Notes under the pieces: model-generated
What the model was told of the DNA's origin: nothing
Databases searched by the model: none
What the model saw: only the letters and a program-made list of their open reading frames with translations
In this document: positions 2,696-10,670 of the stretch, in pieces
Numbering within the stretch: position 1 is the first letter of the stretch
Layout: the number at the start of each line of letters is the position of its first letter
Source: Quisquiliibacterium transsilvanicum
Lineage (GTDB): Bacteria > Pseudomonadota > Gammaproteobacteria > Burkholderiales > Burkholderiaceae_E
NCBI RefSeq assembly: GCF_014202215.1
Contig: NZ_JACHGB010000006.1
Coordinates: 186,001-250,000 of the forward strand
DNA: 64,000 nucleotides
Direction of reading: 5' to 3'
Made by a program: the position numbers and the translations under genes

Positions 2696-3525
2696 GGCGC
2701 AGCCCCGCCGGGCGGCTCGCCCGCGCCGGGCGGACGCTTGTAGCGGTTGTAGCCCCACAGGTATTGCGCGGGGATGCGCAGGATGCAGCGCTCCATCGCT
2801 GCGTTCAGCGCCTCGGGCGTCGGCGCCCCGGCCAGCCGCTCGAAGTGGATGTGCCAGCCCTTGCCCGCGCCAAGCCGCTCGCCCACCGCCAGCACGACCA
2901 CCGCGCCGCTGGCCTGGGCCAGCCGCAGCGGCAAGGTCATCGTCCAGGCGGGCGCGCCGAAGAACGGCGCCCATTGCCCCTCGCCCTCGCCCGGCACCTG
3001 GTCGGGCAGCAGCCCGACGGCCTCGCCACGGCGCAACGCGCGCAGCAGCGCGCGCACGCCAGCAAGCGTGGTGGGCGCCGACTGCATGTCGTCGGCGTTG
3101 CGGGCAGCAGCCAGCACCTGCGCCAGTGCCGCCTGCCTGGGCGGCTTGAACAGCACGGTGATCGGTGCGCGGGTGGCATACCAGCGCGCGGCGACCTCGA
3201 ACGCGCCCAGGTGGGGAGTCATGAACAGCACGCCGCGGCCCTCGCGTTCGGCCGCCTCGAGCACCGGCTGGTCGTCGCAGCGCACCCGCCGCGTCAGCGC
3301 CGCCCGCGGCCGGAACCAGATCCACGGCAGTTCTCCGACCATTCGCCCGGCGTGCCGCGCGCAGCTCCAGCGCAGCTCGCGCGGCAGCCCGGCGATCTCC
3401 AGATTGCGCAGCAGCTTGCGCCGATAGGCGGGCGAGACGAGGTAGACGAGCAGCCCAAGCCCTGCACCCAGCGCCTGCAGCAGCCCCAGCGGCAGGCGGG
3501 CGAGGAGTCGGAACGACCGGAGCAT
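2692..3525 (-). CDS. LpxL/HtrB-family acyltransferase (first copy)
   Basis: This 277-residue paralogue of the downstream gene has an N-terminal membrane segment ('LPLGLLQALGAGLGLLVYLV'). Its catalytic motif is H-x4-E ('TPHLGAFEVAA'), the more usual LpxL form, followed by 'FFGAPAWTMTLPLRLA'. The ATG at 3525 is preceded by a long purine-poor stretch with no strong Shine-Dalgarno. Its promoter must lie in 3526-3744, shared back to back with metK. The last four bases overlap the next acyltransferase, so the two are translated together. Likely role: late acylation of lipid A in the inner membrane. Confidence 0.87.
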   Translation of the reverse strand: MLRSFRLLARLPLGLLQALGAGLGLLVYLVSPAYRRKLLRNLEIAGLPRELRWSCARHAGRMVGELPWIWFRPRAALTRRVRCDDQPVLEAAEREGRGVLFMTPHLGAFEVAARWYATRAPITVLFKPPRQAALAQVLAAARNADDMQSAPTTLAGVRALLRALRRGEAVGLLPDQVPGEGEGQWAPFFGAPAWTMTLPLRLAQASGAVVVLAVGERLGAGKGWHIHFERLAGAPTPEALNAAMERCILRIPAQYLWGYNRYKRPPGAGEPPGGAAP

Positions 3526-3572
3526 CGTGGCAGCTTCTTGTTGGAGGCAGGGCCCCTTGCCGGACCCTGATT

Positions 3573-3578
3573 TATAAT
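3573..3578 (+). promoter_or_regulatory. Putative -10 box of the metK promoter
   Basis: TATAAT is a perfect -10 hexamer. It would place the transcription start a few bases before the 5' strand of the riboswitch P1 stem at 3585, giving an mRNA leader of about 160 nt. No convincing -35 hexamer is present at 16-18 bp, so this promoter may be weak or activator-dependent. Confidence 0.5.
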
Positions 3579-3584
3579 CCCTGC

Positions 3585-3661
3585 GCCGCCGGTTTAATGG
3601 ACAACTTGCGGGGCGGCAGCCCGTGGCATGCGCTTTCGGGCAAATGAAAGTTCCGCTAAAG
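3585..3661 (+). ncRNA. SAM-II-type riboswitch (long-loop form) in the metK leader
   Basis: The leader folds as an H-type pseudoknot with SAM-II hallmarks. P1 pairs GCCGCC (3585-3590) with GGCGGC (3612-3617). Loop 1 carries the conserved UUUAA (GGTTTAATGG, 3591-3600). P2 pairs CTTGCGG (3605-3611) with CCGC-TA-AAG (3653-3661), leaving the SAM-II-typical UA bulge inside the conserved GCUAAA. The loop between P1 and P2 is enlarged to about 35 nt and can form its own hairpin (CCCG with CGGG). The known SAM-II class uses such folds to shut off S-adenosylmethionine biosynthesis genes, and a long-loop variant has been described. Assignment is by eye, without a covariance-model search. Confidence 0.72.
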
Positions 3662-3744
3662 CGTCGCCGCTTCTCCGAAGACGGCCGCGCCGGACGGATG
3701 CGATGTTCGCACCGCGTGTCCTCATCATCGAACGGAGAAGTGAC

Positions 3745-4911
3745 TTGGCCAACGATTATCTCTTCACGTCCGAATCGGTCTCGGAAGGTCACCCGGACAA
3801 GGTGTCCGACCAGATTTCGGACGCGATTCTCGACGCAATCCTCGCACAGGACAAGTTCTCGCGGGTCGCCGCGGAGACTTTGTGCAACACCGGTCTGGTG
3901 GTGCTCGCGGGCGAGATCACCACGGCCGCCAACGTCGATTACATCCAGGTCGCGCGCGACACCCTGCGTCGCATCGGCTACGACAACACCGAGTTCGGCA
4001 TCGACTACAAGGGCTGCGCGGTGCTCGTGGCCTACGACAAGCAGAGCCACGACATCGCCCAGGGCGTCGACGAGGGCCGCGGCCTCGACCTGGAACAGGG
4101 TGCCGGCGACCAGGGCCTGATGTTCGGCTACGCCTGCGACGAGACCCCCGAGCTGATGCCCGCGGCCATCTACTACGCGCACCGGCTGGTCGAGCGCCAG
4201 GCCGACCTGCGCAAGGATGGCCGCCTGCCCTGGCTGCGCCCGGACGCCAAGTCGCAGATCACTCTTCGCTACGTCGACGGCCGCCCGCACTCGATCGACA
4301 CCGTGGTGCTGTCCACCCAGCACGCGCCGGACATCGCCTACGAGACCCTGCGCGAGGCGGTCATCGAGGACATCGTCAAGCCGGTCCTGCCCAAGGAGCT
4401 GATGACGGGCGAGATCCGCTACCTGATCAACCCCACCGGCCGCTTCGTGGTCGGCGGTCCGCAGGGCGATTGCGGCCTCACGGGCCGCAAGATCATCGTC
4501 GACACCTACGGCGGCGCGGCGCCGCACGGCGGCGGCGCGTTCTCGGGCAAGGATCCGTCCAAGGTGGACCGCTCGGCGGCCTACGCGGCACGCTACGTCG
4601 CGAAGAACATCGTCGCCGCCGGGCTGGCCACGAAGTGCCTGGTGCAGGTGTCCTACGCGATCGGCGTGGCCCGCCCCACCTCGGTGATGGTCAGCACCGA
4701 CGGCACCGGGACGATCAGCGACGAGAAACTGTCGGCGCTGGTGCAGGAGCACTTCGACCTGCGCCCCAAGGGCATCGTGCAGATGCTCGACCTGCTGCGG
4801 CCGATCTACTCCAAGACCGCTGCCTACGGGCACTTCGGCCGCGACGAACCCGAGTTCACCTGGGAGCGCACCGACCGCGCGGCGGCACTGAAGGCTGCCG
4901 CAGGCGCCTGA
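3745..4911 (+). CDS. metK: S-adenosylmethionine synthase
   Basis: MetK makes SAM from methionine and ATP. The TTG at 3745 is chosen as the start: a GGAG (3734-3737) lies 7 bp upstream and the product then begins (M)[19 protein letters not shown], the standard MetK N-terminus, giving 388 residues, the normal length. The in-frame ATG at 3628 would lie inside the riboswitch and is rejected. The ATP- and methionine-site motifs '[17 protein letters not shown]' and '[19 protein letters not shown]' are intact. The gene is monocistronic: a riboswitch leads it and an intrinsic terminator follows. Confidence 0.96.
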
Positions 4912-10500: not shown

Positions 10501-10508
10501 TCGCGCGT

Positions 10509-10584
10509 TCCCGAGGAGCGCTGCAACGGCCGCCGTGGTCACGGCCGCCGCCAGGCTCGGGTTCCCGATGCAAAACGGCGCTCG
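10509..10584 (+). ncRNA. SAH riboswitch in the ahcY leader
   Basis: The sequence matches the S-adenosylhomocysteine riboswitch. Stem P1 pairs CCGAG (10511-10515) with CTCGG (10556-10560). The conserved core is GAGGAGCGCTGCAACGG followed later by GCCAGGCTCGG. The pseudoknot strand 'AACGGCGCTC' (ending 10583) pairs back to GAGCGC (10516-10521). The class turns genes on when SAH accumulates and is known upstream of ahcY and metF in beta- and gammaproteobacteria. A second inverted repeat (CGTGACC with GGTCACG, 10590-10606) follows and may belong to the expression platform near the ribosome site at 10662. Confidence 0.93.
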
Positions 10585-10670
10585 TCGATCCGTGACCCGG
10601 TCACGGCGAACGAGCCCGGCCCCTGGCCTCCCTGCCTTCGCCCGACCGGTCACTTTTTGATGGAGTGACC

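Follow-up and report, generated by a model that had tools for sequence, protein, structure and literature searches.

SAM-II riboswitches (RF00521), pseudoknots whose ligand is S-adenosylmethionine (SAM), were first described from alphaproteobacteria (PMC1273637) and subsequently reported from betaproteobacteria as well as alphaproteobacteria, a terminator accompanying most of them (PMC2258182). According to Leyn et al. (2014), the SAM_alpha element occurs only in Rhizobiales and Rhodobacterales, and a betaproteobacterial "metXZ" element, a pseudoknot followed by a terminator, precedes metX/metZ; for betaproteobacterial metK, the authors list no known methionine regulator and report that efforts to identify one were unsuccessful (PMC4239095). 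Two related families are the SAM-II long loops (RF01726), whose listed sources are Bacteroidetes and marine samples (PMC2864571), and SAM-V, which has a pocket nearly identical to that of SAM-II and acts translationally (PMC6061858). Here we analyze a stretch of 64,000 nucleotides of Quisquiliibacterium transsilvanicum (contig NZ_JACHGB010000006.1, positions 186,001–250,000; hereafter, the window), in which the leader of metK very likely contains, judging from its sequence, a SAM-II-type aptamer. We consider it probable that the leader works as a translational OFF switch, a riboswitch of the SAM-II type into which a hairpin, P3, has been inserted.

Between a TATAAT box and metK, positions 3585–3665 of the plus strand form an H-type pseudoknot of helices P1 and P2 with an additional helix P2a. 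Its elements, together with the flanking box and gene, are as follows.

3573–3578, plus strand: TATAAT −10 box, seen in the sequence; P1 starts 7 nt after it
3585–3590, plus strand: 5′ strand of P1, GCCGCC, partner of 3612–3617, with two-sided changes in relatives
3593–3597, plus strand: third strand in loop L1, UUUAA, equal in our mapping to SAM-II U10, U11, U12, A13 and A14
3600–3602, plus strand: 5′ strand of P2a, GAC, partner of 3663–3665
3606–3611, plus strand: 5′ strand of P2 (the pseudoknot helix), UUGCGG, partner of 3653–3659
3612–3617, plus strand: 3′ strand of P1, GGCGGC, partner of 3585–3590
3618–3652, plus strand: connecting loop L3, 35 nt, holding hairpin P3 and then an A-rich linker
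3619–3623 and 3637–3641, plus strand: hairpin P3, GCCCG/CGGGC, inside the P1–P2 connecting loop
3653–3659, plus strand: 3′ strand of P2, CCGCUAA (CCGC-U-AA), with U3657 bulged and the following A3660 not in a Watson–Crick pair
3657–3660, plus strand: pocket part of the P2 3′ strand, U3657 corresponding to U44 (adenine contact), A3658/A3659 to A45/A46, and A3660 to A47 (numbering of PMC3764141)
3663–3665, plus strand: 3′ strand of P2a, GUC, seen in the sequence and common to hairpin P4 (below)
3745–4911, plus strand: metK, methionine adenosyltransferase, TTG start (TIGR01034, 598.3 bits)

The leader shares with RF00521 the H-type P1/P2 arrangement with P2a, the UUU third strand, the CUUGC and GCUAAA pocket strands, the metabolic pathway and a promoter directly before P1. 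The spaced pattern TTTAA-N5..15-CTTGC-N30..60-GCTAAA is found once in the 64 kb and in none of 100 shuffles. Much of this had been anticipated by the first-pass annotation of this DNA, a reading of the letters without database searches: the H-type pseudoknot with a SAM-II core and UUUAA in loop 1 lies where it had been placed, the P1–P2 loop described as about 35 nt long with its own CCCG/CGGG hairpin is the 35-nt L3 with GCCCG/CGGGC, and the start codon expected about 80 nt downstream is the TTG at 3745, 83 nt after 3661. Its version of P2 (CTTGCGG with CCGC-TA-AAG) holds as a helix but not in detail, as in the SAM-II register only U3657 is bulged rather than "TA"; P2a (GAC/GUC) was not among its elements and is added here.

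It has been reported that U10–U12, U20, U21, G22, C23, G42, C43, U44, and A45–A47 are completely conserved in SAM-II (PMC3764141). By our manual mapping, all 13 of these 13 invariant pocket nucleotides are present in the metK aptamer of the window.

The Rfam models give a different picture. At the gathering threshold, the sole match in the whole window is a riboswitch for S-adenosylhomocysteine (SAH) at 10507–10590, and in the region 3575–3690 no SAM-type family matches even at E ≤ 10, which holds for RF00521, for RF01726, and for the SAH riboswitch family RF01057 alike. The first-pass annotation had named the absence of a hit by the SAM-II and SAM-II long-loop covariance models as grounds for abandoning its reading, and there is no such hit. 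RF00521 has no match over its cut-off anywhere in the host genome. When RF00521 was applied to 18 metK leaders, one scored 20.9 bits and the other 17 had no match at E ≤ 5; since 17 of the 18 leaders are likewise unmatched, the negative result is a property of the models for this group of leaders. Of 41 relatives, RF00521 matches 34 at E ≤ 1 and 10 over the cut-off; 19 of the 20 loci fetched proved by eye to be other SAM-II copies, standing before metX, metZ-like or metH-like genes, and the remaining one (L044) is off register. RF01726 reaches two of these relatives at E ≤ 1; neither match exceeds the cut-off, and neither is in the host genus. What the metK leader has in common with the SAM-II long loops is the name and the idea of combining a SAM-II pocket with a longer connecting loop; the earlier suggestion of a long-loop SAM-II variant stands as regards the loop, but not as regards membership in the described family. 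Sub-threshold matches to hya, L25 leader, PyrR204 and ctRNA in the window and leader were taken as chance.

The case for homology is made by relatives of the leader itself. The metK leader is matched at E ≤ 0.001 in nine of the ten genomes of the host genus; at the level of the family, BLAST at E ≤ 1 yields noise (74 of 74 genomes match) and so was used solely for fetching loci. A scan with the exact pattern retrieved, among named genomes, 39 contigs, including those of Burkholderiales and Burkholderiaceae metagenome-assembled genomes, Thiobacillus, Zoogloeaceae, Pararobbsia, Chitinasiproducens, Zeimonas, and Lautropia. The genus, family and exact-pattern searches together supplied 46 distinct motif-selected cores, all of which stand before metK. 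These 46 leaders form alignment A1; since the selection motif imposed TTAA, NTTGC and GCTAAAGCGTCG, the invariance of these columns in A1 is not independent evidence. At E ≤ 0.01, a covariance model built from the 46 cores (R1) matches 187 of 300 genomes drawn from the order, and 95 of 134 genera are represented. Part of these matches were fetched and rescored, giving 137 hits in 119 loci (tandem pairs contribute their second aptamers too, and a single place is counted twice, as L126 and L131); 73 of them, each from a different genome, precede metK, so a metK-linked copy is present in at least 73 of the 300 genomes. In a class-wide search, 42 of 274 genomes match at E ≤ 0.001, and only two of the 19 loci read stand before metK, both from the order of the host. 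R1, built from metK leaders only, also finds the RF00521-type metX copy of the host genome (22.6 bits, E = 9.8e-5).

After five duplicate cores had been dropped from 119, 114 distinct metK leaders remained. Two of them (L204 and L208) are mis-anchored because of extra sequence in L1 and were left out of the P1 and U10 counts, hence n = 112 there; L208 is also mis-anchored in the P2 and loop counts, where correcting its anchor does not alter how many P2 cells are paired or unpaired. The comparison of related leaders that the first-pass annotation had proposed as a check yields two-sided changes in P1, P2 and P2a. By direct indexing, P1 shows them at all six pairs (at pair 5 in one leader only) and is paired in 85 to 112 of the 112 leaders, depending on position: GC 44, AU 20, UA 13 and unpaired 27 at pair 1; UA 59, CG 45, GC 3 and AU 1 at pair 2; CG 104, UA 6 and GC 2 at pair 3; GC 98, AU 3, CG 2 and unpaired 9 at pair 4. 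The extension of P2 behaves likewise over the 114 leaders, with GC 80, AU 21, GU 4 and unpaired 9 at 3610:3654, and GC 106 and AU 8 at 3611:3653. P2a pairs over 3 bp in 108 leaders, and in eight it is GAAC/GUUC or GAGC/GUUC in place of GAC/GUC. The string GCTAAA is present in all 114 leaders, 41 of which were chosen by a selection requiring it. In A1, 97.8% of cells are paired, compared with 38–57% in slid controls, and 35 cells are changed on both sides, a number reached by none of 500 shuffles.

Some of these results count against an aptamer of the SAM-II type, namely the lack of any SAM-type Rfam match at the leader, the six leaders of 114 in which P2a is broken, and two of the five covariation measures for A1 that do not stand out from shuffles (93/500 and 251/500 as high). 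Taken together, homology and covariation nevertheless support the reading of the first-pass annotation, a SAM-II-type element with a long connecting loop before metK, despite the absence of Rfam SAM matches.

The same data bear on whether the resemblance arose by chance in a GC-rich intergenic region, or whether the metK coding region is extended in frame at its N-terminal end. An ATG at 3628, which falls within the aptamer, indeed begins an open metK frame (open reading frame, ORF, 3628–4911); together with the Rfam negative this would suit such an explanation, and automatic annotation could wrongly place the metK start at this ATG. We rejected the extension from 3628, as in 59 of the 114 leaders a stop codon in frame separates the aptamer from the start codon; with the covariation, and the pattern recurring in 0 of 100 shuffles, chance and extension have a negligible probability and are refuted to a practical degree. 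At the position of the start codon itself, the metK genes of relatives carry TTG, GTG or ATG. The divergent neighbor of metK is a lipid-A-type acyltransferase gene on the minus strand (NF006487).

As to the promoter, the TATAAT box at 3573–3578 suggests that transcription likely starts at about the start of P1. A −10-like box from a permissive list of 13 hexamers, used with no shuffle control, is present in 90 of the 114 leaders, and in 63 of those 90 it lies 6–7 nt before P1. The scan for sigma-70 promoters called no full promoter in the metK leader, so that the earlier claim of an aptamer close to the predicted transcription start is borne out by the box just before P1 but not by a full sigma-70 match.

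The length of L3 divides the 114 leaders (L208 being mis-anchored here): it is at most 12 nt, as in canonical short-loop SAM-II, in 50, 13–17 nt in seven, and at least 18 nt in 57. In the long-loop leaders, the hairpin is more stable than in dinucleotide shuffles (mean z −2.18; z < −1 in 49 of 57, and above 0 in two, one of which is L208) and is usually followed by an A-rich linker; the window copy of P3 (3619–3641) has z = −1.99. Short forms (L031, L032, L035, L038) and long forms (e.g., L001–L009, L033, L034) both occur within the same family, and for this reason the long loop seems to have arisen by insertion into a SAM-II aptamer of the ordinary kind. In L204 (G092:C1, model hit 601–663), the part of L1 that leads from the third strand to P2 apparently holds a small additional hairpin, at an insertion site different from that of P3.

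It could be argued that the leader is instead a SAM-V riboswitch (RF01826), which has the same SAM pocket, places a P3 between its P1 and P2, and controls translation. The P3 stem-loop is present where this explanation places it (3619–3641, z −1.99), and the SAM-V stem-loop, followed by stacked A nucleotides, occupies the same place in an aptamer whose core superimposes on that of SAM-II (PMC6061858). However, in most SAM-V the Shine–Dalgarno (SD) sequence lies within P2a, whereas here P2a is formed by 3600–3602 and 3663–3665 and the SD is at 3734–3737, about 70 nt downstream, with a distant anti-SD. Moreover, no SAM family of Rfam matches at E ≤ 10, and relatives with an ordinary short SAM-II loop exist, making SAM-V an improbable assignment.

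One pocket position departs from the SAM-II consensus. Position 10 in the metK leaders is U in 17, G in 94, and C in one (n = 112), the window copy having U; the two mis-anchored leaders, L204 and L208, read GAGTTAA at the third strand by eye. The RF00521 copies that are in register have U at this position. The residue of SAM-V that by our mapping equals SAM-II U10 is U8, which bonds to the uracil reading the SAM adenine (PMC6061858). A G at a "completely conserved" position might mean that the leader answers to SAH, to a protein or to the MetK enzyme itself, or that it is a decayed aptamer kept for its hairpin and ribosome-binding site (RBS) structure. We consider this quite unlikely, since the other 12 pocket positions are kept in the metK-leader relatives and U10 is U in the window copy; for SAH as a ligand, the genome already uses the SAH riboswitch family for ahcY, and for the enzyme, Scheuer et al. 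did not detect, in another species, a specific interaction of FLAG-MetK with SAM-II riboswitch small RNAs (sRNAs) (PMC9373788).

Compared with RF00521, then, the metK copies are not matched by the model, precede a different gene (metK), carry P3 in about half of the cases, have an anti-SD platform, and mostly have G in place of U10. Tentatively, and with somewhat less than even confidence, we suggest that the betaproteobacterial metK leaders may be a distinct subtype of SAM-II, characterized by G10 in most members, repeated insertion of P3 and a kinetic anti-SD switch, invisible to Rfam, and providing order-wide SAM feedback on metK, possibly with an affinity or ligand range other than that of the metX copy.

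Downstream of the aptamer, the sequence suggests a candidate control platform, formed by an anti-SD and SD that co-vary and by a competing hairpin, P4; the first-pass annotation had put forward no mechanism of control.

3661–3690, plus strand: hairpin P4 (GCGU.GCCGCUUC-UCC-GAAG.CGGC.GCGC), −15.3 kcal/mol; it cannot coexist with P2a or P5
3668–3677, plus strand: anti-SD, CGCUUCUCCG, a 10-bp complement (one G-U) of 3733–3742
3733–3742, plus strand: metK RBS, CGGAGAAGUG, with the SD GGAG at 3734–3737, forming helix P5 with 3668–3677

Binding of SAM would stabilize the P2/P2a pseudoknot, and P2a would draw the strand 3663–3665 out of P4; the anti-SD at 3668–3677, otherwise held in P4, would be set free to pair with the RBS at 3733–3742 and stop translation, so that at high SAM less SAM synthetase would be made. 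Without SAM, P4 would form first during transcription and keep the anti-SD, and metK would be translated. The sequences show homology of the aptamer, covariation in P1, P2 and P2a, the P3 hairpin, co-evolution of anti-SD and SD, retention of P4 in relatives, and the lack of a U-tract; SAM binding, the OFF direction, and co-transcriptional (kinetic) switching we infer. A translational OFF switch by the anti-SD is a prediction that we hold to be likely.

The anti-SD and RBS differ between lineages and yet match within them, as CGCUUCAGACUCCAA with UUGGAGUCUGAAGCG in L105 (15 bp), CCUGCUCC with GGAGCAGG in L122, and CUUGGGUC with GACCCAAG in L069. The longest Watson–Crick helix is 5.63 for own versus 4.34 for foreign partners (0 of 10,000 permutations, 83 clusters), and the duplex energy is −12.28 versus −8.79 kcal/mol (0 of 20,000 permutations, 43 coarser clusters), whereas a control segment, 24 nt upstream of GCTAAA, has no pairing signal (−7.16 versus −7.64; 18,541 of 20,000 permutations). 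For P4, the first four nucleotides (GCGU) pair with some downstream partner in the minimum-free-energy structure of 100 of the 114 leaders, though over these leaders the stability of the region exceeds that of shuffles only a little (mean z −1.12); in the window the hairpin weakens to −9.5 kcal/mol when the P2a strand is withheld. In an alignment of 52 hand-picked leaders of the 114, 85.7% of P4 cells are paired, compared with 31–50% in slid controls; covariation is modest (score reached by 2 of 500 shuffles), and RNAalifold recovers P4 in part only. A competing structure in the form of a 5-bp AAGCG/CGCUU hairpin was superseded by the larger P4 on folding.

No terminator-like site was called at 3440–3800, and from 3661 to 3744 T never occurs more than twice in succession, hence no U-tract. 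The terminator scan alone is weak evidence, as it also calls none at the metX leader of the same genome, where a bulged hairpin and TTTTT are visible by eye behind the aptamer.

Several observations argue against this platform. A foreign anti-SD pairs better with the RBS than the leader's own in 24% of comparisons on average, the match is weak in L152, L158, L174, and L189 (−4.3 to −6.0), and two slid versions of P4 hold more two-sided cells than P4 itself. When the RBS is included in the folding, P5 is the minimum with or without the P2a strand (−31.1 in both cases). The accessibility of the SD, compared between proxies for the bound and free states over the 114 leaders, changes on average by 0.019 (beyond 0.02, up in 20 and down in five), or by 0.016 with more coding sequence (17 up, eight down), and in the window it is 0.24 versus 0.36 with 28 nt after the start codon included. 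The change has the expected direction but not the expected size. With SAM having a near-zero effect in equilibrium folding, the switch would have to be kinetic, that is, depend on the order of co-transcriptional folding.

The near-absence of an SD difference at equilibrium would also suit an aptamer that binds SAM but exerts control by mRNA stability or by Rho-dependent termination in the untranslated leader; it has been reported that Sinorhizobium mRNAs with SAM-II riboswitches are stabilized at high SAM (PMC9373788). This mechanism would leave the co-variation of anti-SD and SD across lineages unexplained, and we rate it as unlikely, though worth keeping in mind, and favor translational control through the anti-SD.

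Other elements for SAM and SAH were seen in the host genome and its relatives. The SAH riboswitch of the window (10507–10590, plus strand; RF01057, 55.6 bits) precedes ahcY (TIGR00936, 596 bits), which is followed, by eye, by a TlyA-like methyltransferase gene and metF; this locus is the SAH regulon of Leyn et al. The second SAM-II of the host genome lies in the metX leader (L053 1501–1578; G000:C5:437305–437382), scores 35.2 bits with RF00521 (cut-off 36), and probably corresponds to what Leyn et al. (2014) called the "metXZ element", whose description it fits; metX was named by motif and by eye, and that element belongs to a different gene than the metK leader. A third SAM-II-like core of the host genome (L130 791–858; G000:C2:234090–234157) stands before a gene for a MoxR-like AAA ATPase (PF07728, 38.5 bits); RF00521 also matches L130 weakly, at 466–547. 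ORFs resembling this MoxR-like gene were seen by eye behind the cores in L162 and L165.

Further SAM-II cores, several of them tandem, precede ORFs of about 100 amino acids starting with MFDC or MYDC (L140–L142, L144, L155, L157, L167, L173, L182, L184, and others); the three of these ORFs tested have no Pfam or NCBIfam match, and they are a candidate SAM-linked small-protein family. ORFs resembling MATE transporters were noted by eye in L126–L128, L131, L132, L134, L135, and L159. In L039 (1506–1711, G085:C1), an ordinary SAM-II, behind which a terminator-like tail is visible by eye, is followed by a second SAM-II that has a long loop and a P3 of its own; this tandem resembles the SAM-II/SAM-V tandem of Pelagibacter. 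Finally, RF02424 (Bp2_287, a Burkholderia "sRNA") weakly matches the minus strand at L053 1486–1619, opposite the metX SAM-II (21.3 bits), and at L140 1–96, next to the upstream end of another SAM-II core (29.2 bits; the cut-off of the family is 70). Possibly, this supposed sRNA is a riboswitch leader taken from the wrong strand.

In the literature searched, which does not cover the key 2017 surveys, we found no description of a metK-linked SAM-II in betaproteobacteria. The metK leaders expose a gap in the Rfam model of SAM-II, and would, with control itself predicted from sequence, be a specific and testable answer to the missing metK regulator of betaproteobacteria. One genome with two SAM-II aptamers, that of metX with a terminator seen by eye and that of metK with a putative translational platform, offers a natural pair, which may be useful for understanding the role of the "invariant" U10 and translation switching at a distance.
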